Shown here in pieces: positions 6,086-39,800 of a stretch of DNA of 64,000 bases (the stretch's first letter is position 1; every line of letters starts with the position of its first letter). Location: NCBI GenBank assembly GCA_017999435.1, contig JAGNLV010000001.1, positions 617,550 through 681,549 on the forward strand, read 5' to 3'. Position numbers and translations under genes: made by a program. The notes under the pieces were generated by a model. That model was given only the letters and a program-made list of their open reading frames with translations, searched no databases and was not told where the DNA came from. This DNA is from Candidatus Zixiibacteriota bacterium (GTDB lineage: Bacteria; Zixibacteria; MSB-5A5; GN15; FEB-12).

Positions 6086-6224
6086 GCTTGTTCTCCCTAC
6101 AAGGTTTCCAGATGCGGCTCCTCGGTCGGGTTCTGCACATTCGGCTCAATTCCGGTGATCGACTGAAAGAGCAGTCGATCCGCGGTGAGTGGTCGGCGGT
6201 CAGGGTCGCCACACCTCCGCTCGC

Positions 6225-6370
6225 ACTCCGCCGGCGCGCGGCCCACGGGAGACCTCTGGAGAGCTGTCGCGCCTCAGGTTGGCACACCCCGCCGGCGCGC
6301 GGCTCATTCGACACGAGCGTCGCATTCACCGCTCCGTCCCCGCAGCATCCCGCCGGCGCGGCCCACTCCC
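6225..6370. repeat. Three short repeats at exact 61-bp period
   Basis: Copies start at 6225, 6286 and 6347. Each has A, C/T, C/T, then CCGCCGGCGCG, then an optional CG, then GC, C/T and CA, about 20-24 bases. The 37-41 bases between copies are unrelated. No fourth copy is found 61 bp to either side. The core contains the palindrome CGCCGGCG, which is common in this GC-rich sequence, so part of the likeness may be chance. The equal spacing is the notable feature. Confidence 0.45.
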
Positions 6371-6430
6371 CACCATCCGCAAGGTCGATCTCGAAGGCGT
6401 GTCGTCAAATCACATATTCTCTGCCAACAT

Positions 6431-6459
6431 AAAAAAACAGGCCCCGTCTCCGAGGCCTG
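6431..6459 (-). terminator. Rho-independent terminator of pdxS
   Basis: On the minus strand the stem CAGGCC/GGCCTG is followed by a run of seven T residues (the A-run at 6431-6437 on the plus strand). It starts 28 bp after the pdxS stop codon. Confidence 0.8.
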
Positions 6460-6486
6460 CCTCCATTATCCAAACTCTCCCCGCCC

Positions 6487-7374
6487 TCACCGCGTCTGAA
6501 GCAGCTCCTCCTGCGGAATGCTGTCGGCCTGGATCCCCTTCATCGCCGGCCCCAGCCCCCGCGAGGCATTCCCTACCGCCGCCGCGTCCTGCCAGTGCGT
6601 CGTCGCCGTCACAATCGCCTTGGCCCGCTTCTCCGGATTATCCGATTTGAAAATCCCGGACCCGACAAACACCGCCTCCGCCCCGAGCATCATACACAGC
6701 GCCGCGTCGGCCGGCGTCGCGATCCCCCCGGCCGCGAAATTCGGCACCGGCAGCTTCCCCGCCTTCGCCACCATCCGCACCGCCTCGATCGACACCCGGT
6801 GCTCCTTGGCCACCGCGTAGAGTTCGTCCTCCGGCATCGTCGTCAGCGCCCGCATCGCCGCGTTGATCTCGCGCAGGTGGCGCACCGCGTGCGAGACGTC
6901 GCCCGTGCCCGCCTCCCCCTTCGTCCGGATCATCGCCGCCCCCTCGGCGATCCGCCGCAGCGCCTCGCCGAGATTCCGGCACCCGCACACGAACGGCACC
7001 TTGAAACTCCACTTGTCCACGTGGTGGGCGTGGTCGGCCGGCGTCAGCACCTCCGACTCGTCGATAAAATCGATCTCCAGCGCCTCGAGCACGCGCGCCT
7101 CCGCGATGTGCCCGATCCGGCACTTCGCCATCACCGGAATCGTCACCGCCCGCTTGATCTGCTCGATCACGTCGGGATCAGCCATGCGGGCCACCCCCCC
7201 TTCGGCGCGGATATCCGAGGGCACCCGCTCCAGCGCCATCACCGCCGCCGCCCCCGCCCCCTCGGCAATTCGGGCCTGCTCTGCGCTCGTGACGTCCATG
7301 ATGACGCCTCCCTTGAGCATCTCGGCCAGCCCGACTTTCACCTTATGCTGTGTATCGCTGAATCTTTCGATCAT
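6487..7374 (-). CDS. pdxS: Pyridoxal 5'-phosphate synthase, lyase (synthase) subunit
   Basis: 295 residues, full length for PdxS. It forms PLP from ribose 5-phosphate, glyceraldehyde 3-phosphate and ammonia in the DXP-independent B6 pathway. The TIM-barrel signatures are complete: [65 protein letters not shown] and [12 protein letters not shown]. Lys84 in the MAKCRIGH strand corresponds to the Schiff-base lysine, and the lysine of RTKGEAGTG is the second catalytic one. The ATG at 7374 is chosen over an upstream in-frame start because AAGGAGAG precedes it and the family begins MxERxxxTQxxVK. The glutaminase partner pdxT is not adjacent. Confidence 0.96.
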
Positions 7375-7518
7375 GTCGTCTCTCCTTCTTCCGACACGCT
7401 GCCTATCACTAGAACGCACCCCCGGCCCGCCCGGATTCGAAAAAAGTCGCCAATCCGGACTGTCGCGGGCCCCTTTCGCCGCCCCGCGCCGACCCTCTCA
7501 ACCCTTCAATATAAATAG

Positions 7519-7546
7519 AAATGGGGCCTGTGGACAAGCCCCATTT
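7519..7546 (-). terminator. Terminator downstream of the Rrf2 regulator gene
   Basis: A perfect 9-bp stem (AAATGGGGC at 7519-7527 with GCCCCATTT at 7538-7546) and a 10-base loop, followed on the minus strand by a T-rich stretch. It starts 56 bp past the stop of the Rrf2 gene. Confidence 0.7.
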
Positions 7547-7601
7547 GACAACTTCCCGGGCCGGCCCGCTCACGCGGCGCCCGATCCGCGGCGGCGGTCG
7601 G

Positions 7602-8033
7602 TCACACCCTCACCCGCGCCGCCGGCCGCGTCTTGCGCCGATACTTCGCAAAATTCTGCTTCTGCAGCGCCTTCTTGAACATCTTCTCCTGCGACTCCCA
7701 GAACCCGCGCAACTGACAGGCGTTGAACTGCTCGCAGGTGCAGGTCTTCGTCTCCGTGCACAAATTCAGGTGCAGCGGGCCGTCAATGGCCTCGATCACG
7801 TCCAGAAACGACACGTCTTTCGGATTGTGCGCCAGCCGATACCCGCCGGTGACCCCCTGGTATGACACCAGGATGCCGCTCCGGGTCAGGTCTTTGAGGA
7901 TTTTCGCCAAAAACTCCCGCGGCACGCTCTCCGCCTCGGAGATCGAATTGATCGAGCCGAGCTTGCCGGGCGGAAGGTTGGAGATGTGCCGGACGGCGCG
8001 AAGCGCGTAGTCGGATTTGCGTGACAGTCTCAT
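7602..8033 (-). CDS. Rrf2-family transcriptional regulator with four cysteines
   Basis: 143 residues. The N-terminal winged helix is standard: LSRKSDYALRAVRHIS, then PREFLAKILKDLTRSGILVSYQGVTGGYRLA. The cluster-binding segment carries Cys92, Cys98, Cys100 and Cys106. Classical IscR/RsrR-like members use three cysteines, so one is spare or alternative. Such regulators bind a Fe-S cluster and adjust transcription to iron-sulfur status, nitric oxide or redox stress. The gene is divergent from the A-type carrier/ferredoxin operon, with 363 bp between starts, so it probably controls that operon and itself. Confidence 0.9.
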   Translation of the reverse strand: MRLSRKSDYALRAVRHISNLPPGKLGSINSISEAESVPREFLAKILKDLTRSGILVSYQGVTGGYRLAHNPKDVSFLDVIEAIDGPLHLNLCTETKTCTCEQFNACQLRGFWESQEKMFKKALQKQNFAKYRRKTRPAARVRV

Positions 8034-8396
8034 AGATCGTCTTCCCTTTTGACGGCCAAGCCGCCGTGAACGGTGGTTAGCTCTGTCCTTATCGTTTACT
8101 CTTTCCTCTTCGTTTCCTCATCCCCCACCGGCCCATTATACGAATAAGGATACACATAGTCCACAACAAAATTGACAAATGTATGTTTTTTTCCCTGTTT
8201 CCCCCGGCCCTCCGCACATCCTGCGCTCCGGCCCTCCGCCCGCCCCTGTCGCCGCCCGTCAGGCCCGCCCCCGCCGGCGGCCCCCCCCCCACCGGGAACA
8301 ACAGCCGTCTCTTTTCCGTTAGCTCTCAAACGGCCGCCCCGACGCGGCGTACATAGAGAGACAAAAGAGATTTGGCCCATGCGAAGGAGAGCCGCC
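8034..8396. other. 363-bp divergent intergenic region between the Rrf2 gene and the Fe-S operon
   Basis: Contains the promoter for the Rrf2 gene (8135-8163), an AT-rich stretch at 8130-8200 and a run of ten C residues near 8281. No gene was seen. An operator for the Rrf2 protein is expected here, but I could not identify one by eye. Confidence 0.6.
8135..8163 (-). promoter_or_regulatory. Sigma-70-type promoter for the Rrf2 gene
   Basis: Minus strand: -35 TGGACT (4 of 6), 17-bp spacer, -10 TATAAT (6 of 6). It lies about 100 bp before the ATG. Confidence 0.55.
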
Positions 8397-8765
8397 ATGG
8401 TTGACACCGCCGTCCGCACCGACCTCGCCGGGCCGCACCCCCCGGTGACCATCACCGCGGCTGCGGCCGAAGAAATCAAACGCCTGCGCAACCTTGAGAA
8501 AGAAGCTCCCCCCTACCTCCGCCTCGGCGTTAGCGCCGGCGGCTGTTCCGGCATGTCCTACACCATGGCCTTCGAAACCGAACGGCACGACACCGACCGC
8601 GCCTTCGACTGCCACGGTCTGACCGTCCTCGTCGACGCCCAGGCGCTCCGCTACCTTGCCGGCATTACCCTCGATTTCAAGGGCGGGCTGATGGGCGGCG
8701 GCTTCAACTTCTCCAACCCGCGCGCCAAACGCTCCTGCGGCTGCGGCTCGTCGTTCTCCGTCTGA
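8397..8765 (+). CDS. A-type iron-sulfur carrier (IscA/SufA/ErpA family)
   Basis: 122 residues. It carries the invariant three-cysteine pattern of A-type carriers: Cys50 in SAGGCSGMSY and Cys114 and Cys116 in SCGCGSSF. The remaining fold elements (VTITAAAAEEIKRL, LRLGVSAGG, VLVDAQALRYLAGITLDF, GGGFNFSNPRA) are also intact. It delivers assembled [Fe-S] clusters to apo-proteins in the cytoplasm. The ATG at 8397 has AAGGAGA six bases upstream; an ATG at 8380 lacks a ribosome-binding site. It is first in an operon with a DUF2480-like gene and a ferredoxin, opposite an Rrf2 regulator. Which of IscA, SufA or ErpA it matches cannot be told by eye. Confidence 0.93.
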   Translation: MVDTAVRTDLAGPHPPVTITAAAAEEIKRLRNLEKEAPPYLRLGVSAGGCSGMSYTMAFETERHDTDRAFDCHGLTVLVDAQALRYLAGITLDFKGGLMGGGFNFSNPRAKRSCGCGSSFSV

Positions 8766-9058
8766 TGCCCCTCGCCATCCTCGACCCCCAGGAGTTCACC
8801 GAGCAGGGCATGTTCACCGAGGACGGCTTCCTCGCGCGGGCGGAAAGCTTCGACTTCAGCCGCTTCGACGGCTGCCATGTGCTCATCCGCGGGTGCGGGG
8901 GCATTCCCGTCCCCCCGTGGGCCTTCATGCTCCTGACCGCCCGCCTCGTGGGCCGCGCCCGCTCCGTCCGCTACGGCAACGAACACGACCACATCACCGT
9001 CTACCGGGCCCCGGGCCGGCCGCAAAAGCCCGTTGCGCCGAGGAACCCCAATGACTAA
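8765..9058 (+). CDS. Small DUF2480-like protein
   Basis: 97 residues overlapping the A-type carrier gene (TGATG). The order of conserved segments resembles DUF2480 proteins of Bacteroidetes: FDFSRFDGCHVLIRGCG (family form DWSQYxxKxVAxxC), then IPVPPWAFMLLTARL (family form IxPTWAYMLLA) and a short SVRYGNE strand. It is much shorter than the usual 165 or so residues because the N-terminal half is missing. Function is unknown. DUF2480-type genes tend to sit among Fe-S assembly genes, and that position is repeated here. The assignment rests on pattern likeness only. Confidence 0.6.
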   Translation: MPLAILDPQEFTEQGMFTEDGFLARAESFDFSRFDGCHVLIRGCGGIPVPPWAFMLLTARLVGRARSVRYGNEHDHITVYRAPGRPQKPVAPRNPND

Positions 9059-9107
9059 CTTGGCCCCTGACAAAATCCGAGAGGACGCGAACCGCAAGGA
9101 CAGACCC

Positions 9108-9428
9108 ATGCGCAGGATCCGGTTTCTGCCGATCGACATTACGGTTGAAGTTCCCGAAGGCACCTCCATCCTCGATGCCGCTCTCGACCATGACATCCGC
9201 ATCGACCACAACTGCGGCGGCAACTGCGCCTGCTCCACCTGCCATGTCATCATCAACGAGGGCTACGACACCCTCGCCGCGCCGACCGAGGATGAGGAAG
9301 ATATGCTCGACGAAGCCGAGAACCTGACCGACACCTCCCGCCTCGCTTGCCAGTGCCGCGTCACCAAAGACCTCGTCGTCACTATTCCCGAGAAGGAACC
9401 CCTCTGGGATAAAGACGACACCTTCTGA
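9108..9428 (+). CDS. [2Fe-2S] ferredoxin (adrenodoxin/Isc Fdx type)
   Basis: 106 residues. The cluster ligands are Cys36, Cys42, Cys45 (C-x5-C-x2-C) and Cys81; Cys40 and Cys83 are extra. Family motifs are present: IDITVEVPEGTSILDAALDH, HNCGGNCACSTCHVII, DEEDMLDEAENLTDTSRLACQC. It carries electrons for Fe-S assembly or for an oxygenase or reductase partner. The start at 9108 has AAGGA seven bases before it and matches the family N-terminus; an ATG at 9051, inside the end of the previous gene, would add 19 non-conserved residues. Last gene of the Fe-S module. Confidence 0.93.
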   Translation: MRRIRFLPIDITVEVPEGTSILDAALDHDIRIDHNCGGNCACSTCHVIINEGYDTLAAPTEDEEDMLDEAENLTDTSRLACQCRVTKDLVVTIPEKEPLWDKDDTF

Positions 9429-9450
9429 ATAAAACCGCCCGAAATGCGCG

Positions 9451-9480
9451 CGGCGAGCTCCTGTCGGACTCGCCGTTCTG
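9451..9480 (+). terminator. Possible terminator between the ferredoxin and peptidase genes
   Basis: Inverted repeat CGGCGAG (9451-9457) and CTCGCCG (9469-9475), followed by a weak T-rich tail. It lies between two convergent genes. The U-tract is poor, so confidence is low. Confidence 0.35.
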
Positions 9481-9506
9481 ATTGCCGCTCAATGCCGGTC
9501 CGCCTC

Positions 9507-11378
9507 TCAGGGACACGCCGGCGGGGCCGCTCCGCCCCGGAACAGATACGAAATCAGCATCGTCACGTCCGACACCCGCGGCACGCCGTCCCCGTTCACG
9601 TCGGCGCGCGCCGGGCAACCGGCCGCCGGCCCGCCGCGGAAGAGATGCCCGATCAAGCCGGTCAGGTCCGACACCGCCAGCGTTCCGTCCCCGCCGAAAT
9701 CCCCCCGCACCACGCAGCAACAGGCGTCCCCCACCCCGTCGCCGTCAAAATCCGCCTGGTCCGGGTTGGCCGCAAGCGGGCAGTTGTCGCAGACATCCCC
9801 GAGCCCGTCCCCGTCCGCATCCGCCTGGTCCGGATTCGCCGCCGCGTCGCAGTTGTCGAACGCCTCCAGGATCCCGTCACCGTCCGCATCATAGCTCAGC
9901 GGATGCGCCACGTGAAGGTACATCCTGTCCCCGACCATCGAATCCACGTGCACGAGCACGTCCGAGGGGCGGTCGTAACCGTCGCTGGCGGGGCTCGTCT
10001 TCGGCCCGAACAGATCCTGGCCCGGCGTCTCGCTGGAGAAGAGCGCCCCCTTGCGCGTCTCGTAGGGATACCACCAATCGGCCGAGTCGCTCACCTGCCC
10101 GCCCGGGTTGTACGCGGTGTCCCGCGCCGGATCGTACCCCGCATCGACCACCCGCACCCGGTAGTGCTCATCCCACGGCGTCCCGTAATTGGTCGCCATC
10201 GTCTCGTCCACGTGGGTCACCAGCAGTCCCCGGTCGAGCGAATCGGGACCGAGACTCAGATGCGGGAACAGCCAGATGCTGAAGTCCGAGTCCAGCTTGT
10301 CGAACTTCCCCGGCGACCGCCGGTTGCGGTACTCCAGGAGAAAATACTCCGTCCCGTCCGCGCTGATGTTCAGTTTGTAGAGCGAGGACTCGGGGTGCGT
10401 CTCGATATCGTACAACACGAGATTGAGGTGCTCCCCTGTGATCACCGCCGGCTCGATCCACCCCAGCTCATGCTTCATGTACCCGCACAGGTGCGTCGGC
10501 ACGGTCGCGCCCAGGCTCAGCGCCCCGTACCCATAGTGCCCCATCAGGCACCAGTCCATGACCGGGTGGTCGTTGGCGTCGCCGGGCGTCATGGCCGCCG
10601 AATCGGAGTAGAGCAGATCGATGTCGAACAGGTCGCCCGCCCCGAGCATGTGCGCGATCTCGTGGCTCGCCACCCGCACCCCGTGCAGTTCGTCGCCGAT
10701 GATCACTGCGGGATCGGCCGCTGAGCGCACCGGTTTGACCTCCGGGATCGCCGCGAGCTGATTCACGTACATTCCGTCGAAAGGCCCGAATTCCTCGCCC
10801 GGAGGAAACGTGATCGCCGCCGTTCATATGTCCGTCAGGCAGTTGGTGTCCGGCCGGTTCCGCCCCGCCACCACAAACACCACCCCGTCCACCCGCCCGT
10901 CCCCGTTGCCGTCATACTGCGTGAAGTCTATCAGCGAGTCCAGCTCCGCGAGCAGGTAGAGCAGCGAATCTCCCGAAGCGACATAGGAACCGTTGTTGAA
11001 CCATCCGTAGACCTGCCCGGTCACCTGGAGCTGCCCGTAGGACACCTCGTCAAAATAGTCGGCCACCGATCCGTGGGGCATCAGGTCGCGCGAGAAGAAC
11101 AACTGCCGCAGCGTATCGACTGCATAGGTCGAGGGCCGTTTCTCCGGCGGCTCCAGCCACTCCACCGCGATCACGAGAAGCTTGAGCGTGTCCCCCGAGA
11201 ACGACTTTCCTCCCAGCGCCGCCGCTTCGGCCGGATCGAGGACGCGCAGACTGAACTGCTGCGCGAAAAGCTCGGCCGGGCAGTCGTGCACGATCGCGCG
11301 CGACGGCAACGTCGCGGCCGACACCGCCGCCGACAACAGCACAACCCCGCAGAGCACCGCCGGCCGGACCGAACCCAT
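9507..11378 (-). pseudogene. M6-type secreted metallopeptidase with dockerin-like module, interrupted by one in-frame TGA
   Basis: One continuous reading frame of 624 codons apart from a TGA at 10824-10826, about residue 185. It starts at the ATG at 11378 with a signal peptide (MGSVRPAVLCGVVLLSAAVSAA) and SD AGGTGAGG. The prodomain and M6 (immune inhibitor A-like) core contain YDGNGDGRVDGVVFVVAG and, after the stop, the zinc motif [14 protein letters not shown]. Then come two thrombospondin type 3 calcium repeats and the C-terminal paired dockerin-like module ending [12 protein letters not shown]. The TGA falls directly after NCLTDI, where M6 enzymes usually read DIW, so it most simply replaces a TGG Trp codon. 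No other damage is visible. Confidence 0.8.
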
Positions 11379-11433
11379 CAACACCTCACCTGGGCCAACC
11401 GCCTCAACCAAAATAAGATAAATGCTATCGACA

Positions 11434-11461
11434 ATATAGGACACATTACCGATTCCGCAAC
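11434..11461 (-). promoter_or_regulatory. Possible promoter of the M6 peptidase gene
   Basis: Minus strand: -10 TATATT (5 of 6) with a weak -35 TTGCGG at 16-bp spacing, about 55 bp before the start codon. Confidence 0.35.
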
Positions 11462-11623
11462 CGCGTTTTTGGCTCCGCGCCCTTGCGGCGCGCCGCAGTC
11501 CCCGCCCGCCGACTCCCGTAAACCCGCTCTAACTTCCTGCCGATAACAGAGATAGGCCGAGTGCGCCGATCCGTCGGCAGAGCCGCCGCCGGCCCCTCGG
11601 AACCTGACTAGCAGTCGAACAAA

Positions 11624-12391
11624 ATGACGACCCGGCACCACATTCTCGTCCGCGCCTCGCAGCGCGGATACTCCCTCTTTGAGATGATCCTCGTGATCGT
11701 CATCATCGGCATCCTCGCCGCCATCACCATGCGCTCTCTCCGTGGCGCCGGTGAGGCGGCCCGCACCGAAGAGACGCGCGCCGAGATGGACCGCCTTGCC
11801 TGGGCGATCGCCGGCGATCCCGGCCTCGTCTCCGGCGGCCACCGCACCGACTACGGTTACGTCGGCGATGTCGGCGCCCTCCCCCCGACCCTCGAGGCTC
11901 TCGCCGTCAACCCCGGCCTCGCCACCTGGCGCGGCCCGTATGTGCACGATGACTTCAAAACCTCTGCGGGGGCGCCGGAGAGCAGCTTCCGCATCGACGC
12001 CTGGGGGCGCCCCTACGCCTACGCCGGCGTTGCCATCACTTCGACCGGCGGACGGATTCCCCTCACGCGCCGTCTTGCTCCCGATGCCGGCCGCCTTCTG
12101 CGCAACACCGTCACCGTTGTCGTCACCGACCTGGCGGATTCTCCACCCGGCGCCCGCTACGTCGATTCCCTGGCCGTCATTCTCACCGTTCCCAACGGCC
12201 TCGGCGGCCTGGTTGAGCGAAGGCGCACACCCCGCCCCGACGGTTTCGCCGAGTTCGATTCGGTGCCGATCGGCGCCCACCTGCTGCGCCTCGTTTACAC
12301 ACCAGCCGCCGACACGCTCCGCCGCCGGGTCGCGGTGGAACCGGGGCAACACGCGCATCTGGACTTGCAGTATCCCGCGGAGGTCTGGTAG
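11624..12391 (+). CDS. GspG-like pseudopilin with C-terminal sandwich domain, paralogue 1
   Basis: 255 residues. The prepilin leader ends RG before YSLFEMILVIVIIGILAA, a class III signal with Glu at +5. Next comes the pilin helix, then a GspG-like head: YGYVGDVGALPPTLEAL, NPGLATWRGPYV, DAWGRPYAY. An extra domain of about 100 residues follows, with TDLADSPPGARYVDSLAVIL and FAEFDSVPIGAHLLRLVYTPAADTL, which looks like a carboxypeptidase-regulatory-type beta sandwich. It is first of four tandem paralogues at 11.6-15.1 kb. No secretion ATPase or secretin is adjacent. Role unknown: pseudopilus minor components or surface fibres. No clear SD is seen. Confidence 0.75.
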   Translation: MTTRHHILVRASQRGYSLFEMILVIVIIGILAAITMRSLRGAGEAARTEETRAEMDRLAWAIAGDPGLVSGGHRTDYGYVGDVGALPPTLEALAVNPGLATWRGPYVHDDFKTSAGAPESSFRIDAWGRPYAYAGVAITSTGGRIPLTRRLAPDAGRLLRNTVTVVVTDLADSPPGARYVDSLAVILTVPNGLGGLVERRRTPRPDGFAEFDSVPIGAHLLRLVYTPAADTLRRRVAVEPGQHAHLDLQYPAEVW

Positions 12392-12392
12392 C

Positions 12393-13160
12393 ATGGGAGA
12401 AGCCTGTCGGGACAACCGGGGAATGAGCCTGATCGAATTGCTCGTCGTCATCGTCGTCATCGGCATTCTGGTCGCGGCCGCCATGCAGGCCATGACCGCC
12501 ACCCTCGCCGACCTTCGCCGCGTTCGCGCCGAGCGGGACCTGGAGGCGCTTGCCCGGGCTATTGTCGGCGACCCCGTCCGCACCGCCGGCGGCGCCCGCT
12601 GGGATTTCGGCTTCGTCGGCGATAACGGTGCGTTCCCGCCCGACCTGGCTGCTCTGCGCGCCAACCCCGGCGGCTGGGTCACCTGGAACGGCCCCTACCT
12701 CGATCCCGGTTTCGATCAGGACACGCTGCGCTACCGCCTCGACCCCTGGGGAGCGCCCTACCAGTATGTCGGCGGCCTCACCGTCATCAGCACCGGCAGC
12801 GGCGCCCCGCTCGTTCAACGTCTCGCCGACGACGCCGCCGACTACCTCGCCAATACCTACGAGGGACTGGTCCGCGATGCCGCCGACTCGGTCCCCTCAA
12901 GCCGCTACCGCGACTCGGTTTCAATCCTGCTCACCGTCCCCAACGGCGCGGGCGCCTGGACCATCCTCCTCCAGCATCCCGACTCGGCCGGCCGCTTCGC
13001 CTTTTCCCCACTCCCGGTCGGCACCCACCTTCTCCGCATCGTTTTCACCCCCCGGGCCGACACCCTCCTGCGCTGCGTGACCGTCCTCCCGCGCCATCGC
13101 AGCGACCCGCCCGACCGCTACCGATTCACAGAGGCCTGGTTCTCCGGAGGGACGCCATGA
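12393..13160 (+). CDS. GspG-like pseudopilin with C-terminal sandwich domain, paralogue 2
   Basis: 255 residues. A very short leader (MGEACRDNRG) precedes MSLIELLVVIVVIGILVAAAM, with Glu at +5. The head repeats the paralogue pattern: FGFVGDNGAFPPDLAALRANPGGWVTWNGPYL, LDPWGAPYQYVGG and VISTGSGAPL. The extra domain has YRDSVSILLTVPNGAG and FAFSPLPVGTHLLRIVFTPRADTLL. It starts one base after the stop of paralogue 1 and overlaps paralogue 3 by ATGA, so the genes are one operon with probable translational coupling. Differences among copies lie mainly in the central head, so they may be non-equivalent subunits rather than recent duplicates. Confidence 0.75.
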   Translation: MGEACRDNRGMSLIELLVVIVVIGILVAAAMQAMTATLADLRRVRAERDLEALARAIVGDPVRTAGGARWDFGFVGDNGAFPPDLAALRANPGGWVTWNGPYLDPGFDQDTLRYRLDPWGAPYQYVGGLTVISTGSGAPLVQRLADDAADYLANTYEGLVRDAADSVPSSRYRDSVSILLTVPNGAGAWTILLQHPDSAGRFAFSPLPVGTHLLRIVFTPRADTLLRCVTVLPRHRSDPPDRYRFTEAWFSGGTP

Positions 13161-14296
13161 CCGGCCTCCGCACGGCCTCCGCCTTCACCCTCATCGAGGT
13201 CATCCTCGTGGTGGTTATCGCCGGCCTCCTGGCCACCGTCGCCCTGCGCTCCGCGGGCGCTCTCCGCGAGAGCGCCCGGAATGAAGAGGCCCGGCGCCAG
13301 ATGGAGCGCCTCGCCGCCGCCGTCGCCGGCGATCCCGAACTCCGCTCCCTCGGCGTGCGGGCCGATTTCGGCTACGTCGGCGACCTCGGCGCCCTCCCGC
13401 CCGACCTCGGCGCCCTCCGCGACAACCCCGGCCTCGCCGCCTGGAGCGGCCCCTACCTCGTCAGCCCCGCCGCCGAGGATCCCGCCGACTGCACCACCGA
13501 CCCCTGGGGCGTCCCCTATGCGCTCAGCGGCGTCAACCTCGTCTCGACCGGATCCGGCTCCCCCCTCGTCTTCCCCCTCGCCGCCTCTGCCGACGACCTC
13601 CTGCGCAACTCGGTGGCCGGTGTGGTCCTCGATGCCGACGGCACTCCCCCCGGCGCCCTCTACGCCGACTCCCTGCGCGTCATTTTCTCCCACCCCGATG
13701 GCCTCGGCGGGCGGGCCTCCCGGACCCGCATCCCCGATCGCGGCGGCTACTTCGCCTTCGACTCCGTCCCCGTCGGTAACCACGACCTCACCATCATTTA
13801 TCTCCCCGACGCCGACACCCTCCGCCGCTTCGTCTCCGTCACCCCCGGCGCCGCTCCCTACAGCGAGTTCTTCCTCGGCGCCAACCTGTGGAGCGCGCAG
13901 GGCATGTCGGGCACCGGCCTCGAGTTCGTCGACAACTCCGACACCCTCGCTGGCGGCCAGTGCAGCGTGCTCAACTTCTCCGTCACCAACACCACCTCCC
14001 ATCCTATCACCGTCTCGGCCCTCACCTTCACCTGGCCCGGCCCCACCGCCTACTACCGCAAAATCCGCTGGAACGGCGTCGACGTCTACAGCAACCCCGC
14101 CCGCGGCAGCGGCGACCTGGCCGTCTTCACCGCCCCGCAGACTCTCAGCGGCGGCGCCACCGCCCGCATCACCTGTGACCAGTTCAAGCAATTCCCCAGC
14201 GGCGGCGGCGCGAGCGTCAACGTCACCGGCGTCGCTTTCACTGTCACCTTCTCCGACGGCTCCGTCATCACCTTCGTCGCCGACAACTGCAGGTAA
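13157..14296 (+). CDS. GspG-like pseudopilin, long paralogue 3
   Basis: 379 residues, about 120 longer than its neighbours. The leader ends in Ala rather than Gly (TASA before FTLIEVILVVVIAGLL); Ala at -1 is tolerated by some prepilin peptidases. The head (FGYVGDLGALPPDLGAL, NPGLAAWSGPYL, DPWGVPYAL) and the sandwich domain (YADSLRVIFSHPDGLGG, FAFDSVPVGNHDLTIIYLPDADTLR) match the other copies. A further domain of about 120 residues follows, rich in Ser, Thr and Asn, including LEFVDNSDTLAGGQCSVLNFSVTN and an end with a lone Cys; I do not recognise it beyond a beta-rich look. The longest member may be a tip or adhesin-like subunit, but that is inference. Confidence 0.75.
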   Translation: MTGLRTASAFTLIEVILVVVIAGLLATVALRSAGALRESARNEEARRQMERLAAAVAGDPELRSLGVRADFGYVGDLGALPPDLGALRDNPGLAAWSGPYLVSPAAEDPADCTTDPWGVPYALSGVNLVSTGSGSPLVFPLAASADDLLRNSVAGVVLDADGTPPGALYADSLRVIFSHPDGLGGRASRTRIPDRGGYFAFDSVPVGNHDLTIIYLPDADTLRRFVSVTPGAAPYSEFFLGANLWSAQGMSGTGLEFVDNSDTLAGGQCSVLNFSVTNTTSHPITVSALTFTWPGPTAYYRKIRWNGVDVYSNPARGSGDLAVFTAPQTLSGGATARITCDQFKQFPSGGGASVNVTGVAFTVTFSDGSVITFVADNCR

Positions 14297-14310
14297 GGAG
14301 AACCGCCGCC

Positions 14311-15087
14311 ATGACGCCTGTTTCCCCGCACCTCAAATCACCCGCCGGCTTCACCCTCATCGAGCTGGTCATCGTCCTCGTCGTCATCGGCATCATCGGT
14401 GCCGTCGCTCTCCGCGACATGCTCCGCGCCATCGATGACGCCCGCCTGGCGCAGACCCGCGCCGAACTCGACCAGATCGCCTTCGCCATCGCCGGCAACC
14501 CCGCCCTGCAGGCCGATGGCGCCCGGTCCGATTTCGGCTATGTCGGCGACGTCGGCGCGCTCCCCCCGGACCTCGCCGCCCTCGTCGCCAACCCCGGCCT
14601 CGCCTCCTGGCGCGGCCCCTATCTTGACTTCGGAATTGCCCCCTCTGACCGCCCCTCTTTCGGAAGCCCCCTGTCCGATGCCTGGGACGTACCCTACGCC
14701 TACACCTCCCCGCCGGACGGTCCGGTCGCGGTCCAGTCCAGCGGTTCCGGCGCCCCGCTCACCCGCCTCGTCGCCCCCTCGGCCGCCGACCTCCTCAATA
14801 ACACCGTCCGCGGCTTCATCACCGACGCCGACCGCCACTCCCCCGGCCCCGTCTACCGCGACTCCCTCGCCCTGCTCCTGTCCTATCCCGATGGCGCCGG
14901 GGGCGTCGCCGCTGTCGCCTGTGTTCCCGCCGCCGATGGCTCTTTCGCCTTCACCGGTATCCCCGTCGGCAACCACACCCTCCGCGTCATCTTCATCCCC
15001 GCCGCCGACACTCTGGCTGTCCCCCTCTGTGTTCCGCCCGCCTCGGAGCTCAAACTCGCCGTCGCCTACCCCGCCGACCTCTGGTAG
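14311..15087 (+). CDS. GspG-like pseudopilin with C-terminal sandwich domain, paralogue 4
   Basis: 258 residues. The leader ends PAG before FTLIELVIVLVVIGIIGAVAL, a canonical class III signal. The head has FGYVGDVGALPPDLAALVANPGLASWRGPYL and DAWDVPYAYT; the sandwich domain has VYRDSLALLLSYPDGAGG and FAFTGIPVGNHTLRVIFIPAADTL. GGAG lies 8-11 bases before the ATG. It ends three bases before the stop codon of the convergent dehydrogenase gene, and no terminator is visible between them. Of the four copies this one is closest to paralogue 1 in the head. Confidence 0.75.
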   Translation: MTPVSPHLKSPAGFTLIELVIVLVVIGIIGAVALRDMLRAIDDARLAQTRAELDQIAFAIAGNPALQADGARSDFGYVGDVGALPPDLAALVANPGLASWRGPYLDFGIAPSDRPSFGSPLSDAWDVPYAYTSPPDGPVAVQSSGSGAPLTRLVAPSAADLLNNTVRGFITDADRHSPGPVYRDSLALLLSYPDGAGGVAAVACVPAADGSFAFTGIPVGNHTLRVIFIPAADTLAVPLCVPPASELKLAVAYPADLW

Positions 15088-16239: not shown

Positions 16240-16529
16240 ACTGTCCTCTCCGGTCGAATCAAAACCATCCTCGCTTGCAATAGCTCCTAATATAACGCCC
16301 CCGCCCCCTCCCGCCATCACAAATCGGCTGAAAATATACACAGTGTGGGAAACGTGAATGTGATTGACAAGTTGCTCCCCGCTTGTCAGGATGCAGCCGA
16401 CACCGTCTCGCACACGGATGTCATGATCTGGGAGAAACAGAGGTCCGCTTACCGGCGGACTCAAGGAGGGATTTTCGTGGCCGTCGCGGTCCGCTGCGGC
16501 GGCGAACACCAACACTTCAGGAGGGAGAT
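16240..16529. other. Divergent intergenic region with AT-rich pocket at the strand-asymmetry change
   Basis: 290 bp between two divergent genes. It contains AT-rich sequence at 16285-16296 and 16317-16365, two imperfect DnaA-box-like 9-mers facing each other (16334-16342 and 16344-16352, each 7 of 9) and a hairpin or operator (TGACAAG/CTTGTCA, 16365-16388). No gene was recognised. See the finding on base skew. Confidence 0.4.
16365..16388. promoter_or_regulatory. Inverted repeat upstream of the Asp-box dockerin gene
   Basis: TGACAAG (16365-16371) and CTTGTCA (16382-16388) separated by ten bases, 142 bp before the start codon at 16530. It could be a dyad operator or an RNA hairpin; nothing further can be said from sequence. 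Confidence 0.35.
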
Positions 16530-19500
16530 ATGCGCTGCATCCGCCCGCTCATATTGGGCGCCGCCGTGGCGCTGTACGCCGGCGCGTCGGCCACAGCCGA
16601 CCGCCCGCTCGGTTCAGCGAAACAGTTGTCGCCGGGCGCCGTTATCGGCACGTCTTATTGGGATCGGCAATGCAATTTCGCCACCACGCGCCGCGTCCAC
16701 CTGAGCACCGCGGCCGGGCGCGAGCTCGTCCATCATGTGTGGACCTTTCAACCGGCGCCGCCCGTGTGGGAACGGACCGCTCACTACCGTCTGTACGACA
16801 TCGCGGGCGGCGCCTACAGCCCGGGGGTGGACATACCCGAGGGCACTCGCATCAGGGCCGGCTTCGGGGATATGTGGATCACCGACGACAACCGGGCGGT
16901 GATCGCGTACCAACACTATTCCGACCCGGACCAACGATATCATCTGTGGACAGCCTTTGACTCGGCGGCGGGCGCCGGCGAGTTCTCCAATCTGGTCGAG
17001 ATCCCCGACTCCATCGACTTCTACAGCTTGGTCAACTACCAATCGCCCCTCTGGCCCCACGTGGCCTACGTGGAGGGTGTCCACGACACGGTCCTTCACA
17101 TCGTGGCGCAGGAATCGCTCCAGTATCCGGACTCGGTCGCGATCTTCTACTTCCGCCGCGTCGGATCCGATTCCGACCCGACGGCGGTGTGGGATTACCC
17201 GCCTCGCGTGATCGATTCCAACTACAACTGGGGTTCCCACCAGCTTGCGGCAACCTCCGATGGCCGGGTGGCTATCGCGTGGACGGCCAACGTGCCGTGC
17301 GCGGGGGATCCCGACACCGCCTCGGGAGTCGGCTGCTCTGATTTCGTCTTTTGGGAGAACGATCTGTACTTCCAGGTGTCGAACGACCAGGGTCTCACGT
17401 GGCAGAATCGGGTTAACGTGACCCGTTACTCCGAAACGCCGGAGCACCCCTATCGGGCGCACTGGGAGATATCGGCGCTCTTCGATCACCTTGGCGTCCT
17501 GCACATGATATGGTCGGCTGCAGCCTGGCCGCGAACAGCCCCCGGGCCCGGTGAGGTCGCCCAGACCGCCAGCGCCATTTTCCACTGGTCGGAGACCAAC
17601 CCGACGCCGACCATGGTGCGTGAGACAAACTGGAATCAGACCGTCTGCGGCGGCGGCGAGGGCCGCCCGTTGAACATCGGCGACATATCGCTCGCCGAGT
17701 GCGACGGACGTCTCTACACCCTGTTCGTCCAGTTCAACGATTACGACGCCGGCATTATGAGTGACTGCTGTGACTCGAACTTGACTTTTTACCCCGATGG
17801 CGCCGCCAACGGCGACCTGTATATCTGTGTCTCCTCGGACGGCGGACTGACCTGGGACGCTGCCCGCAATCTGACGTCCACGCGAACTCCCGGCTGCAGG
17901 TTCGACACGCCCGGCAACGTCTGCGCGTGTGAAAGCTGGCCCTCGGTCACCCCCTACGGGAGCAATGTCTCCATCGACCCGTCAATTTCCGGGGCCGACG
18001 TTGTTGTCCCCGCCGGCGGGAGTGATCCGGGTTGGTATCTCGATGTGCAGTACGTGCTCGACCCTTTGCCCAGTTCGCCGATGACGCAGGAAGGTTGGCG
18101 GACGGAAACCTCCATTCGATGGTTCCGCATCGCCTGTGTCGACCCAATCCAGGAACCCGATCTGGCCATATTGCCCGACAGCCTCGCCTATCCGGTCTAT
18201 ACCCCGCACTGCGCGGAGCGCCTTGTTCCGATTGTCCTTTCCAACAGCGGTGTCGGCGAGGGGCACTACTCGATCATTGCCGAGGAGTTCGCCGGCCCCG
18301 CCGGGTGGCTGGGCACGACCGGCTTCTCGGGGACAGTGGCGGCCGGGGCGGCCGCCGATACCGGGTACGTCGTGCTGAACCCGGGCGGGGCGCTCTGTTC
18401 TCCGGGCGCCATTGTGCGCCTGGCCGGCCGGCTGCGCTTCGACTCGAACGATCCGAATTCTCCTCACTATGTCCTGATCGACCTCGTGGCCGCGGACACG
18501 GTCTGCCTGCCGTCAGCCGACACGCTCACCACTGCCTGCGTCGCGCTGCAGGTGTTCAATGACGCGGGGTTCGGCGGACGGGGCGCCGGCGGTGTGACGA
18601 TGGACTACTCAATGTCCGGCGACTGCGATCCGGCGGCGGCAACGTACTTGTCCGACGCCTCGCCCATCGTCATCGCTGACACTCTCGTCAACTGGTCGGT
18701 CTATGGCTGTGATTTCCTTGCGCCGCACGGGCTGGTGCCCCTCGCGAGCGCGTCGGGCAGCGGCGGCGGATTCCGTTGGAGCCGGTCGCTGGCCACAGTC
18801 CGCGACTCGTCGCTCATTCTCGAAACCGACTGGTACGCACCCCTGCCTACCGACTCCTGCGCCTTCTTAATCCAGCGGCTCAGTCTCTACGCGGCTGATG
18901 CTCTCCCACACACAGTCTCCTTGGGCCAGCTCATCGACTGGAATATCCCCTCGGATTCGGGCCTTCGCAACGGATCGGACACGCTGGTCGATCCGGCGAT
19001 TATCTATCAGTACGGCGCGGAATACCACCAGGACCCCGGCGCCTGCCGGAACAGCGACCGCCGCATGGGTGCGGTCTTTCCGCTGGCCATGTATCGCCGC
19101 GCGGCGTTGCACGAGCCCCTTGTCGCGGACTCGAGCAACCTCTGGCATTGCGCCCAGACCCGCGCCACCGATGCATGCCTGGACACCGCGCGGTGCGGTC
19201 TGGACGCGGCCGAACTGGAGCTTGCCCTGAGCGAACCGGGCCGCCGCCTTTACTCTGCCACGGTACCCGAATCGACGTACACGGATCTCCACACCCTCGT
19301 CGGTTTCGTCTCCGATCTATCGCTGGTTCCGGGCGAGACGCTCGTCGTGTACACAGGTCTGGCGACGGTTGCGGATGGCGACACGGCGGTTCTCCGCGGC
19401 CTCGCAGACCAGGCCCGGCAGTGGTACTGCGACCACCTCGTGCCCGACCCGCCCGGTTGCGGCTGTTGCCGGCTCCGCGGCGACGTCAACCGCGACAGCG

Positions 19501-19673
19501 GCGTTAAGGTCAGCGATCTGACTTTCTTGGCGAGCTACCTTTTCCGGGGAGGTCCGGAGGCGCTATGCCCCGACGAAGCGGACGCCACCGGTGACGGTGA
19601 GGTGAAGGTTTCGGATCTCACCTATCTGACCGCGTACCTGTTCCGCGGCGGGCCCGCCCCCATCCCCTGCTGA
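16530..19673 (+). CDS. Secreted Asp-box (BNR/sialidase-like) protein with dockerin-like C-terminus
   Basis: 1047 residues, beginning with a signal peptide (MRCIRPLILGAAVALYAGASATA) after a strong AGGAGG five bases upstream. The first half is beta-propeller-like, with Asp-box motifs SNDQGLTW and SSDGGLTWD. The sialidase catalytic arginines are not evident, so a binding or scaffold role is more likely than glycosidase activity. The middle has beta-rich segments with DSNDPNSPHYV, recalling choice-of-anchor or ASPM-SPD-2-like domains. The end is the paired dockerin-like module: CGCC, VSDLTFLASYLFRGGP, then VSDLTYLTAYLFRGGPAPIPC. It is probably exported and held at the cell surface. It converges on the 2000-residue gene. 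Confidence 0.8.
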   Translation: MRCIRPLILGAAVALYAGASATADRPLGSAKQLSPGAVIGTSYWDRQCNFATTRRVHLSTAAGRELVHHVWTFQPAPPVWERTAHYRLYDIAGGAYSPGVDIPEGTRIRAGFGDMWITDDNRAVIAYQHYSDPDQRYHLWTAFDSAAGAGEFSNLVEIPDSIDFYSLVNYQSPLWPHVAYVEGVHDTVLHIVAQESLQYPDSVAIFYFRRVGSDSDPTAVWDYPPRVIDSNYNWGSHQLAATSDGRVAIAWTANVPCAGDPDTASGVGCSDFVFWENDLYFQVSNDQGLTWQNRVNVTRYSETPEHPYRAHWEISALFDHLGVLHMIWSAAAWPRTAPGPGEVAQTASAIFHWSETNPTPTMVRETNWNQTVCGGGEGRPLNIGDISLAECDGRLYTLFVQFNDYDAGIMSDCCDSNLTFYPDGAANGDLYICVSSDGGLTWDAARNLTSTRTPGCRFDTPGNVCACESWPSVTPYGSNVSIDPSISGADVVVPAGGSDPGWYLDVQYVLDPLPSSPMTQEGWRTETSIRWFRIACVDPIQEPDLAILPDSLAYPVYTPHCAERLVPIVLSNSGVGEGHYSIIAEEFAGPAGWLGTTGFSGTVAAGAAADTGYVVLNPGGALCSPGAIVRLAGRLRFDSNDPNSPHYVLIDLVAADTVCLPSADTLTTACVALQVFNDAGFGGRGAGGVTMDYSMSGDCDPAAATYLSDASPIVIADTLVNWSVYGCDFLAPHGLVPLASASGSGGGFRWSRSLATVRDSSLILETDWYAPLPTDSCAFLIQRLSLYAADALPHTVSLGQLIDWNIPSDSGLRNGSDTLVDPAIIYQYGAEYHQDPGACRNSDRRMGAVFPLAMYRRAALHEPLVADSSNLWHCAQTRATDACLDTARCGLDAAELELALSEPGRRLYSATVPESTYTDLHTLVGFVSDLSLVPGETLVVYTGLATVADGDTAVLRGLADQARQWYCDHLVPDPPGCGCCRLRGDVNRDSGVKVSDLTFLASYLFRGGPEALCPDEADATGDGEVKVSDLTYLTAYLFRGGPAPIPC

Positions 19674-19761: not shown

Positions 19762-22700
19762 TTACTTCAACAGGATCATCTTCTTCGTGTCGTTAAACTC
19801 CCCGGCCTCAAGGCGATACAGGTACACGCCCGATGCCACCCGGCTGCCGTCGGCCGCCCGACCGTCCCATTCCACCTGGACGCGCCCGGCATCCGACCCG
19901 TGGTACTCGCGCACGAGCGCCCCGTTGACGTTGTAGATCGCCAGCGTCCAGTCGGCCGTGTTGGCCAGCGCGAAACTGATCACCGTGCTCGGGTTGAACG
20001 GATTCGGGAAATTCTGGTCGAGCACAAACTCGCTCGGCAACACCCCGCCGGTGGCCGCCACCGAGTACGCCTGACCCTGGTAGTCAACCACTTCGGCGCG
20101 CGCCAGGAGCAGCTCGCCCGACCCTTCGAGCGCCACCGAGACCAGCTCCTGCGGCCCCGCCGGGATCGCCGCCTTACCGATCTTGAACAGCAGGATCCGC
20201 AGCTGGCCGTCCATCACGTTCCACTTGACATCCATACCGGCGGCGGCTCCGATCGCGGCCACGTTGCTGACCTGTGCGCCGCGCGGCACCTGGTAAACCA
20301 GGAGCGCCCCGCCGATCTCACCCGGCGCCTCCGAACTGATCGTCACCCGCCCCTCCTCGCGCAGCGCGCTCAGGATGACATCCTGGCCCCGCGGCGCCAG
20401 ACGCGGGAACGGGTTCTCGTCGCCGACCAGCACCCGGATCAGGTACACCAGATCGGCCACTGTCAGCGTCAGCCCGTCGGCGTTCACGTCGGTCGCGGCG
20501 ATCTGCCCGGCGATGTTCACGGTGAAGACCGACAACCCGTAGACAAAGTAGTTGGAGAACAGGACCACGTCGCTGATCTCGTTGGGCACATTGTTCAGGT
20601 TGACGTCACCCCGGTCGTCGAGCGAATCCGGATGGCAGATGTGGATGCCGGCGTTATAGAATTCGACGCAGCGAGTCGGCGTCGGCTTGCCGGGCACCGG
20701 CACGAAGCAGTCGTCCGGCGCGCCCAACCCCATGGGCCGCGCCGCTTCCGGATAGAGCGCGTCGTCGTCCTCGTCCCAGCGCAGAACGTCGTTCTCGAAT
20801 ATCCGCAGGTCGACCATGAGATTGTAGCCGGTGGGGTCGGAGAAGGCGTTGTCGCCGCAGTCAAACCAGTAGAACTGGACGGGCACCCACTGGTCCCCCA
20901 GCGACTGGTCGTTGGCGACGTAGAACTCCAGGGTCGCAAACAGGCCCGCCGGCGAAAGCGCCGATGCCGGCGGATGCTGCGCGCCGTTGTTCATGTCGGC
21001 GATCCCCACCAGGCGCACAAATCGATTGGAGCAGCTCGCCCCGCAGTTGACGTCGTCAAGCCGGTACGTGAAGTACTCCCAGGCCTGGAGCGAGGCCGCG
21101 CGGGTGAGGCCGGTCAGCGTCAGCACCGACTTGTCGAACGCCAGCAGCAGATCGAATCCGCCGATCGGCGTCAACGCCTCAATGTAGATATCCATCGTCT
21201 TGGTCACGCCGACCGGAGTGCAGTCGCCGCCGTCCAGCCAGATCTTCACGCAGACATCGCAGCCCGGCTTCTCCACCACCTCGACATCCATCGTGTCGCG
21301 AACCGTGTGGCACCCGTCGGTCGCCTCAAAACAGAAGCTGTACACGCCGAACGTGTCGGGGACGAAGCACACCTGGCCGCTGTCCGTGCCGGCAAGCGTG
21401 AAACTGCCCGCGCCGCAGGTCCGCGAGAGAACCGGCGTCGACTCGGCGTCGGTTGCGAAAATCCCGTCGATACAGATCCGGCTCGTATCGTCGGCGCAGC
21501 GCTCGAAAGTCTGCAGGCCGGGCACCGTGAGCACCGGCGACTGGTCGGCGCGCACGATCACATTCGTGGTCTTGCTCACCGTGTTGCAGTAGCCCACCGC
21601 CGTGAGCGTAATGGGGTAGGTGCCGGGCGCGCTCACCGGCAGGCAGACCCGTCCGGCGCTGTACACCGCCGGGCTCGTCACCGTGACGTTCACCTGCGTC
21701 CCGGTCACGGTGACCGGGTAACAGATCGTGGCCGGACCGCTGAAACAGACCAGAGTATCCTCGGTCGCCGGCGCCGTCACCGCCACCTGTTCCGCGCGCA
21801 CGATGGAGACGGTGAATTCGCAGGTGTCGCTCCCGCAGGGCGCAGCCGCGATCATCCGCACGTTTATGGTCCCGGTCGCGCTGACCGGAACACATACCTG
21901 TCCCGTGCCCGCGTTGTACCACCCGACCGGGGTCACCGTCACCGTCGCGCCGGCCGGACTGACCGGAGCGGCCACGCAAACCGTGTCGAGGGCGCAGATC
22001 GTATCGACCGGCGGGCTCGTCGGGCAGATGATCGTCGCCGACTGCCCGGCCAACACCCGGATCGTCACCGTGTCCTTGCCGGTGGCCCCGCAAGCGTCGG
22101 TCACGGTCGCGATCACCTGGTATGTGCCCACGGCCAGGTTGCTGAAGCAGATCGAATCGGGCCCCACCACTCCCGCACCGGCCACGACCGACACGATGTT
22201 GGAGTCAAGGTCGGCGACCTGGTACCGCACGCAGACATTGGCGGTGGCGCAGGTCGTCACCGGCGGCGGGGACGTCAGCACGATCACCGGCGGGCGGTTT
22301 GTCTCGTACGTAATCGTGAAGCTGCAGGTATCCGCGCCGCAGTCGCCGGAGGCGATCAATGTAATCGACTTCTGTCCGACGCCCGAAGGAATCGGCACGC
22401 AGACCGTCCCATTGTCTATGAAGGCGCCCCCCGACGCCTGGACCGACTCGACCGACGCCGATGCGCTGTAGGGCAGGCAGATCGTGTCGGGCGCACACAG
22501 GATGACGGTCGTATCCGGCGGGCAGAGAATCGAGACCGGTTCGGCGACGCTCACGGGGACATTGAACTCGCAGGTGTCGCCGTTGCACTTGGCCGAGGCG
22601 ATGACGCGCACGCTGTAGACGCCGCTCGTATCGGCCGTGAAACAGAGTTCGTTGTTTGCCCAGACGCCGATGTTTGTCCAGACCGAGTAACCGGCGCCGG

Positions 22701-25700: not shown

Positions 25701-25764
25701 CGGCGCTGCAGATAAGGGTGAGGACAAACAGCATTGGAATTCGCGGAATCCCTGAGTGTTTCAT
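19762..25764 (-). CDS. Giant (2000-residue) secreted multi-Ig-repeat protein with cohesin-like, dockerin-like and FlgD-like C-terminal domains
   Basis: A signal peptide (MKHSGIPRIPMLFVLTLICSAGAWA) is followed by about 17 tandem repeats of 80-95 residues up to about residue 1500. A typical repeat has four cysteines in the order SLCGPGEVC, then GRICFPADTAGLY, then VTDSCG, and most end NRPP or similar, like bacterial Ig/HYR repeats. A cohesin-like domain follows (about 1500-1670; GGFDLLLAFDKSVLTLTG). Next is a dockerin-like pair with calcium loops DVNLNN and DVNADG (about 1716-1775). The FlgD-like sorting domain is last (about 1911-2000; FVLDQNFPNPFNPSTVISF, then ASGVYLYRLEAG). SD AGAGGAAAG precedes the ATG at 25764. 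Probable outer-surface stalk or scaffold. The long open frames opposite it are shadows. Confidence 0.85.
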   Translation of the reverse strand: MKHSGIPRIPMLFVLTLICSAGAWAQAEAATIATDSVALCFQEALFDTIAVDLPNPGNPGVAMALVSGPGALTYSVSDKLYGYYEYAPSGDTAFEIVYRVWYAPTDSADFRHRYIVWVDEPPTLGDQYNAFKVCWPGPHYLKVYAWDPESRPLAWEIVSGPGTIDSQGLITYTPDTAGVYVFEVAASDDCNRAAATVYDTVRFNGAPRIVLADSIFSLCAEGEICFDVVFSDPDGDAVWFNQVGGPGSTTVVNDSVGRTCFAPAPGDSAWYTFTYSYLDDCEGSDRAPVSPQWLVDSVRVLVVPNRPPQLVCPDPQEFSTCALDTFCFEVEALDPENGPLEFAVISGNAYLDETGKVCFAGEESDAFEIALTVTDECGLTDTCTVPVTVSGNRPPYVTMAADFAVALCAPETVCFAAAVDDPDFDIASVTASFGIWDEATDRLCFTADTAGVYVLVVTAADSCGIVAADTTVVTVSRPAPPTVSLGDDLAVSVCGTTEVCVEASVTADTVLSYILPMEHVFSFNAETGEICFTPDTAGVYTIVFGVVGECGFSDRDTTRVTVAFSSGPSVDLGDDRAVSLCGPGEVCVDVEASAGDLTILPPAASYDAETGRICFPADTAGLYRLIAQVTDSCGAAVDTVNISVDLGQPPVIAPLPDTTIYLCYSQWICLPLAVTDPDGDLDTVITNRGTVTNDGRVCFVPYTGGQYEIIITAIDECGNRDVDTAVVTIKTDENVNIITPRDTTVFTCSLVDTFCFPVAGVPEGAQVTVSGINTWWDAANQTVCFWSQCSNQNRVRLTVRTPCTTYQREFRVTVLCNSAPVVFLPGDTSLALCGTETFCLPAAISDVNRNIQSITVTGGVYNPRTSRICVDLAGPGTYTVTAVAVDSCGASDSDQMQITVLANRPPTVTVAAPDTALSQCQPQQVCLPVTIADPDGQPVTVVSLTGGFTYNAAASEICFTPGAEGTYCGALVIADQCNLQDTANFCVTITTGGSVDIDCPVGAPPAVVLCAPGEVCLPLEITGAGYSVWTNIGVWANNELCFTADTSGVYSVRVIASAKCNGDTCEFNVPVSVAEPVSILCPPDTTVILCAPDTICLPYSASASVESVQASGGAFIDNGTVCVPIPSGVGQKSITLIASGDCGADTCSFTITYETNRPPVIVLTSPPPVTTCATANVCVRYQVADLDSNIVSVVAGAGVVGPDSICFSNLAVGTYQVIATVTDACGATGKDTVTIRVLAGQSATIICPTSPPVDTICALDTVCVAAPVSPAGATVTVTPVGWYNAGTGQVCVPVSATGTINVRMIAAAPCGSDTCEFTVSIVRAEQVAVTAPATEDTLVCFSGPATICYPVTVTGTQVNVTVTSPAVYSAGRVCLPVSAPGTYPITLTAVGYCNTVSKTTNVIVRADQSPVLTVPGLQTFERCADDTSRICIDGIFATDAESTPVLSRTCGAGSFTLAGTDSGQVCFVPDTFGVYSFCFEATDGCHTVRDTMDVEVVEKPGCDVCVKIWLDGGDCTPVGVTKTMDIYIEALTPIGGFDLLLAFDKSVLTLTGLTRAASLQAWEYFTYRLDDVNCGASCSNRFVRLVGIADMNNGAQHPPASALSPAGLFATLEFYVANDQSLGDQWVPVQFYWFDCGDNAFSDPTGYNLMVDLRIFENDVLRWDEDDDALYPEAARPMGLGAPDDCFVPVPGKPTPTRCVEFYNAGIHICHPDSLDDRGDVNLNNVPNEISDVVLFSNYFVYGLSVFTVNIAGQIAATDVNADGLTLTVADLVYLIRVLVGDENPFPRLAPRGQDVILSALREEGRVTISSEAPGEIGGALLVYQVPRGAQVSNVAAIGAAAGMDVKWNVMDGQLRILLFKIGKAAIPAGPQELVSVALEGSGELLLARAEVVDYQGQAYSVAATGGVLPSEFVLDQNFPNPFNPSTVISFALANTADWTLAIYNVNGALVREYHGSDAGRVQVEWDGRAADGSRVASGVYLYRLEAGEFNDTKKMILLK

Positions 25765-39721: not shown

Positions 39722-39763
39722 ATCCAGATCCTCTTCCCTTTCGGTTCGCTTTAGCCCTGGTAT

Positions 39764-39781: not shown

Positions 39782-39800
39782 CGGCCTGTGCAATCTTCGC

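Follow-up and report, generated by a model that had tools for sequence, protein, structure and literature searches.

Four Tandem Modular Pseudopilins

A stretch of 64,000 nucleotides from a Candidatus Zixiibacteriota genome (assembly GCA_017999435.1, contig JAGNLV010000001.1, positions 617,550 to 681,549; this whole stretch is called the window below) carries four consecutive genes for pseudopilin-like proteins, copies 1 to 4 (c1 to c4), in which a pilin-type N-terminus is fused to further domains (Table 1). The start codon of copy 2 is the ATG at 12393, and by appearance the four genes are one transcription unit since an ATGA overlap joins the end of copy 2 to the start of copy 3. Pairwise identity of the four copies is 44-50% over an alignment of about 257 columns. 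Three blocks are invariant: the leader, the head with GDxGAxPPxLxAL...NPG...WxGPY...DxWxxPY, and a C-terminal part with P(V/I)GxHxL...PxADTL. The original prediction, four tandem paralogues with a prepilin leader, a GspG-like head, these motifs and a C-terminal domain, is thereby borne out by open reading frames (ORFs), alignment and profiles alike.

Table 1. Genes and domain of the fused pseudopilin cluster, in window positions.
Feature	Position	Strand	Description
Copy 1 (c1)	11624..12391	+	255 aa; leader (..QRG/YSLFEM), GspG-like head, predicted TTR/CnaB-like sandwich; no further module
Copy 2 (c2)	12393..13160	+	255 aa; leader, head, predicted sandwich; without the C-terminal module common in c2 orthologues
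Copy 3 (c3)	13157..14296	+	379 aa; leader (Ala at -1), head, predicted TTR/CnaB-like sandwich, third beta-sandwich
modA, third domain of copy 3	13892..14293	+	predicted archaellin/FlaG-like fold; weak Arch_flagellin profile matches
Copy 4 (c4)	14311..15087	+	258 aa; leader, head, predicted TTR/CnaB-like sandwich

The class III prepilin motif expected of modular type IV pilins is present throughout. The prepilin profile TIGR02532 scores above its cut-off in all four copies and N_methyl (PF07963) in copies 1, 2 and 4, with copy 3 slightly under (18.5 of 21.2 bits); PF07963 is also matched in 28 of 28 relatives. Glu5 is retained in all four window copies and in 75 of the 76 fused proteins examined, the remaining one having Asp. 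By sequence the head is GspG-like, as a distant match only. PF08334 (T2SSG) stays under its cut-off (best E 0.0046, 17.4 of 21 bits), and TIGR01710 reaches at best 33.1 of 88.85 bits, in a match limited to the first 49 positions of the profile. A search of the entire genome with PF08334 gave zero matches at E 1e-3, which is why the families' own profiles were used as probes. Scores below both cut-offs and the one or two domains beyond the head place the proteins outside the GspG major pseudopilins, and the GspH, GspI, GspJ and GspK family profiles found nothing in the four copies past the N-terminal helix. The proteins are thus unlikely to be ordinary homologues of any of these five subunits.

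Structure of the C-Terminal Domains

An AlphaFold2 model of copy 3, built with 22 relatives (mean predicted local distance difference test score, pLDDT, 82.5), comprises a long helix (residues 12-57), a small head, a beta-sandwich (151-240, pLDDT ~80-91) and a further beta-sandwich (~255-374) in a third domain of residues ~255-379 (pLDDT ~90). Both the sandwich after the head and the additional domain of the third copy had been proposed beforehand and are recovered in this model. The best structural match of the first sandwich is 6hif_Y (VIA Z 11.3 over 86 residues), followed by many CnaB, carboxypeptidase D and transthyretin (TTR) chains at Z 7.5-10. In agreement with this fold, the CarboxypepD_reg profile matches 14 of the 28 relatives (best E 5.5e-6). 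As modelled, the first sandwich is of the transthyretin/CnaB/carboxypeptidase-regulatory type. Copies 1, 2 and 4 align across this region of the model without large gaps and are predicted to share the sandwich. Such C-terminal domains are not specific to type IV filaments, which is a hallmark of modular pilins; the same holds for PF13385, found in orthologues.

Because the structural search with all three domains was dominated by the TTR/CnaB-like sandwich, modA, the third domain of copy 3, was modelled separately and then used as a query by itself. Its model has a pLDDT of 93, and the top matches in both search lists are beta-sandwiches of the archaellum and of archaeal type IV pili. Foldseek retrieves 8fk7 at E 6.9e-5, and the structural Z is 7.9 for FlaF/FlaG (6pbk) and 7.3 for the M. 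hungatei archaellin (5tfy), where a Z of 8 was taken as the safe level for a fold match. PF01917 matches seven of 22 members (best E 1.2e-5), and the window copy reaches 15.7 of the 29.5 bits of the gathering score. A profile search of the domain against solved structures returned only insignificant ribosomal S17 matches and no archaeal relative. With Z below 8 and this outcome of the profile search, a relation of modA to archaellin and archaeal pilin domains is suggestive, not proven.

A Machine Operon with an Empty Slot

The original prediction had noted the lack of an ATPase, platform protein or secretin nearby. This is correct for the flanks examined, but misleading, as the genome encodes a related operon elsewhere (locus L020, C1:60,340-68,146), 561 kb from the start of the cluster at C1:629,173. 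It consists of an ATPase with MshEN domain, a GspF-like platform protein, pilin1, pilin2, a PilM/PilN fusion, a PilO-like protein, a T2SSB-like protein and a secretin. The search for type II secretion system (T2SS) or type IV pilus (T4P) machinery that had been recommended thus finds it, with the slot for fused genes empty.

We mapped this operon in 24 loci by profiles, supplemented by Pfam annotation. The order in 14 loci, spread over eight other families, is ATPase, platform protein, pilin1, pilin2, fused pseudopilins, PilM/N, PilO, PilP-like protein and secretin, with one to three fused copies filling the slot. In these loci the family is encoded together with the ATPase, platform and secretin of a type IV filament machine; in the window it is not, the set having been relocated. 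In ten loci from nine genomes, belonging to two families with a separate cluster, this slot holds no gene while the remaining operon is conserved. The whole operon is kept in nine of the ten, the tenth (L168, a second copy in genome G027) being partial. Outside the operon lie the fused genes of the window's genome and eight relatives; they number four, in one case five. In the sister family (L070-L072) the interval from pilin2 to PilM/N holds one more gene, which encodes a fused pseudopilin of 377 aa comprising all three domains. Homologues in the operon, whose slot is empty in this genome, resolve the puzzle of a pilin set without machinery. Among the operon subunits pilin1 shows the strongest conservation (mean column identity 72%); it is by far the more conserved candidate for the major role, so it is unlikely that the four fused proteins make up the main fibre.

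Distribution and Co-Inheritance

The fused family is present in all 61 nearest genomes searched and in 106 of the 132 genomes of the phylum Zixibacteria, a member of the Fibrobacteres-Chlorobi-Bacteroidetes (FCB) group, with weak matches of about 1e-9 set aside. This breadth confirms that its occurrence is not due to chance. One genome per GTDB species was also scanned with a single peptide pattern, and among the best 80 matches the taxon-labelled records are almost only Candidatus Zixiibacteriota; relatives without the motif or below that cut are missed by such a scan. A few Zixibacteria-like contigs (L084, L138, L147, L153) come from records labelled Ignavibacterium, Eisenbacteria or Calditrichota and are probably misnamed assemblies. 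The genome with the Ignavibacterium label (L084) gives the same match as one in the window's own order (L072/G042), and its label is probably a naming error.

Pilin1 occurs in 98 of the 132 genomes, and all 98 also have the fused family; pilin1 without fused genes was found in none of the 132. The 34 genomes without pilin1 divide into 26 that also lack the fused family and eight that have it, most of the latter being fragmentary or incomplete assemblies. PilM/N was dropped as the marker for this comparison, since it is too divergent across the class and cross-matches the PilM of T4P; the well-conserved pilin1 was substituted. An orphan set or transferred island was rejected because the flanking housekeeping genes are conserved in 12-15 family members.

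Ancestry and Exchangeable Modules

In a maximum-likelihood tree of 84 proteins, whose bootstrap had not fully settled, the copies of two families group by gene position (c1 100/100, c2 100/100, c3 98/92), with c4 less resolved; the c1 orthologue group comprises 18 rows with support 100/100. A second, quick tree, rooted on pilin2 and including two poorly filled rows, places c1-c4 in a single clade (SH-aLRT 95) next to the in-operon genes, with the two- and three-copy in-operon versions of other families outside it. The trees trace c1-c4 back to a single in-operon gene, sister to the head-only pilin2, that has gained the TTR/CnaB-like sandwich. As c1-c4 form one clade and are grouped by position in both families, this gene left the operon and expanded to four in the common ancestor, before the families split, the order then being kept. 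The four copies are thus ancient, order-conserved orthologue groups common to both families. The same four-gene order does recur in other genomes, as the original prediction had asked: it is kept across the two families, and 38 loci have exactly four fused genes.

These 38 loci, which are related and do not represent independent events, served for a tally of the C-terminal modules. Position 4 bears no further module in any of them, and position 1 none in 29 of the 38. At position 2, modB occurs in 20 loci, modA in eight, a LamG lectin in four and another module in one, with none in five. Position 3 carries modA in 28 loci, LamG in three and modB in one, and none in six. In-operon single copies mostly bear modA. 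The LamG module is PF13385 (E 1e-17 to 3e-27); modB, which ends in CTQVWVEVxY, has zero family matches in Pfam. Judged by these sequences, positions 2 and 3 bear exchangeable modules. Other long C-terminal extensions of fused pseudopilins occur at L142 12778-13977, L137 7578-8489 and L063 8918-9562 (-); they have no clear Pfam match, and one shows a faint similarity to a sialidase lectin.

Comparison with Known Systems

The closest precedent is found in Streptococcus sanguinis, where two modular minor pilins, PilB (pilin plus von Willebrand factor A domain) and PilC, are placed at the pilus tip in models (PMC8179133, PMC9934059); PilC combines a pilin with immunoglobulin (Ig)-like and concanavalin A-like lectin modules (PMC9934059). 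Among modular pilins, architectures with PF13620 and PF13385 rank with the commonest (PMC8179133). Both PilB and PilC have an N-terminal class III pilin module with the functional domains C-terminal, as do the proteins described here, and the Ig-like-then-lectin order of PilC resembles the head-TTR-LamG order at L068, L145 and L153. The Zixibacteria set differs in its four tandem paralogues inherited together, each with a predicted TTR/CnaB domain, in its GspG-like head, in its origin within a secretin operon of a diderm phylum and in its archaellin-like module.

With GspG of the T2SS (PF08334, TIGR01710) the proteins share the leader, the helix and a head with a DxWGxPY block. GspG stops after the head, whereas they extend to 255-379 aa with extra domains and score below all family cut-offs, and in their operon the major pilin is a different, better conserved protein. 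Like the GspH-I-J-K tip complex, in which GspK has an extra domain, they are several minor subunits inherited with a machine; yet they lack a sequence match to it past the helix, their extra domains are C-terminal sandwiches or lectins, and all keep Glu5. Archaellins, archaeal type IV pilins and FlaF/FlaG (PF01917 and relatives) provide the top structural and weak profile matches of modA. There the fold is the pilin's own globular part, while modA is appended C-terminally to a bacterial pseudopilin head followed by a TTR domain, and at Z < 8 homology is not proven. Finally, the Bacteroidetes (Cytophaga) 'T2SS' is comparable by description, as an FCB-group secretion machine that falls between T2SS and type IVa pili (T4aP) in phylogenies (PMC6668835).

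Proposed Function and Alternatives

We propose, with a probability of roughly 60%, that the products of the four genes are minor, modular (pseudo)pilins and form a complex at or near the tip of a type IV filament machine that spans the envelope, namely the one encoded 561 kb away; the same joint figure covers the classification of this machine as intermediate between T4aP and T2SS. The proposal is based on the operon position of the homologues, co-inheritance, orthology, the modules, the sandwich, the peptidase and the S. sanguinis precedent. The leaders would be cleaved by the one prepilin peptidase detected in the genome, after which the C1 ATPase and platform protein would add the four subunits, via their N-terminal helices, to the pilin1 filament. 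At or near its tip, copies 1 and 4 would be mainly structural, and copies 2 and 3 would present ligand-binding modules, either outside the cell for adhesion or to cargo. The surface fibre or pseudopilus with displayed domains suggested at the outset therefore remains plausible in outline, though neither as an orphan set nor, probably, as the main fibre subunit.

Several points weigh against this proposal. The T2SS tip subunit GspK lacks Glu5; as all four copies keep it, there is no obvious first subunit among c1-c4. The functional link of the relocated set to the operon is drawn from ancestry and co-inheritance, and expression, assembly, tip location and binding of c1-c4 are all inferred. The modules could be structural rather than ligand-binding, and the window itself holds a reduced variant, in which copy 2 is devoid of its module.

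In a type II-like secretion pseudopilus, the sandwich and C-terminal modules would instead recognise exported proteins in the periplasm and push them through the secretin. The GspG-like heads fit this idea, as do the match of the PilO-like protein to GspM/XpsM, the T2SSB-like domain within the PilP-like protein and the lack of a PilT-like ATPase among the mapped operon genes. We nevertheless regard it as rather unlikely, given the PilM/PilN architecture of the operon and the swapping of LamG lectins between genomes, which suits exposure to outside ligands better. For the operon ATPase and secretin, PilB and PilQ are also slightly better matches than GspE and GspD. These scores lie between the two pairs, below every equivalog cut-off, and fit a filament that exits the cell as an adhesive pilus as well as one that stays a secretion pseudopilus. 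Another reading takes the four as ordinary, lineage-specific counterparts of GspH-I-J-K, with the sandwich and C-terminal domains as mere structural padding; it would match the T2SS in number (four minor, one major and one GspG-like subunit). This is very improbable: the GspH/I/J/K match ends at the helix, one type of GspG-like head and TTR/CnaB domain recurs in every copy, all four keep Glu5, and the modules are exchanged for known lectin domains. It is also improbable, if slightly less so, that the set now serves the ordinary type IVa pilus of the genome rather than the ancestral T2SS/T4P-like operon. The four genes adjoin neither machine, further secretion ATPases of the same family occur elsewhere in the genome, and PilA-like pilins lie in the window. 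However, the set is tightly co-inherited with the major pilin of the operon, its ancestral place is inside a C1-type operon, and other PilV/PilW/PilX-like minor-pilin sets, identified by eye, are available on C3 and C6.

Beyond the preferred reading of a minor tip complex lies a bolder and doubtful one, which we offer tentatively: a distinct Zixibacteria type IV filament machine whose four-subunit display tip arose from one duplicated modular pseudopilin, with positions 1 and 4 as scaffold and positions 2 and 3 as sockets that swap archaellin-like, lectin and modB modules. The archaellin-like module would then link archaeal pilin globular domains to a bacterial T2SS/T4P machine. Grafting of modules onto pilins is a known principle. 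In the portions of the literature covered by our search we found no description of the four-position set, of its departure from the operon, of the archaellin-like module or of socket-like exchange at positions 2 and 3, and a search on type II secretion in Zixibacteria found nothing. So far, modular pilins have been catalogued from domain databases, mostly protein by protein. Here the evolution of an entire set becomes visible, from an in-operon gene that gained a sandwich and left the operon to four position-fixed paralogues, two of which may serve as sockets for modules exchanged between species. The socket pattern makes the outward-facing positions of a minor-pilin complex testable, and it provides, from a phylum that has hardly been studied, a natural range of presented modules.

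Other Observations in the Window and Genome

Judged by eye, the cluster is flanked upstream by Fe-S/PLP (pyridoxal phosphate) housekeeping genes and a protease, and downstream by a saccharopine-dehydrogenase-like gene. The protease, an M6-like gene at 9507-11444 (-), is divergent and directly upstream. Its reading frame is interrupted, giving two ORFs (10824-11444 and 9507-10772), so that there is either a frame break or an error of assembly near 10.8 kb; dockerin-like repeats end the second ORF. Two PilA-like type IV pilins at 38541-38936 (-) and 39293-39847 (-) adjoin an NtrC/PilR-type regulator (39801-41615, -); they resemble the Myxococcus PilA family by profile and are probably part of another type IVa pilus. 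The minor-pilin sets mentioned above are L023 (C3) 8861-11782 and L022 (C6) 6136-9856, one of which has two PilX-like genes in tandem. A 2029-aa exported protein at 19762-25851 (-) contains numerous repeats that look Ig-like, and its C-terminal tail is of the kind found in substrates of the type IX secretion system (FVLDQNFPNPFNPST...MILLK). A 1096-aa ORF at 16383-19673 (+) carries two terminal dockerin-like repeats, and such repeats recur in other large proteins of the window and genome.

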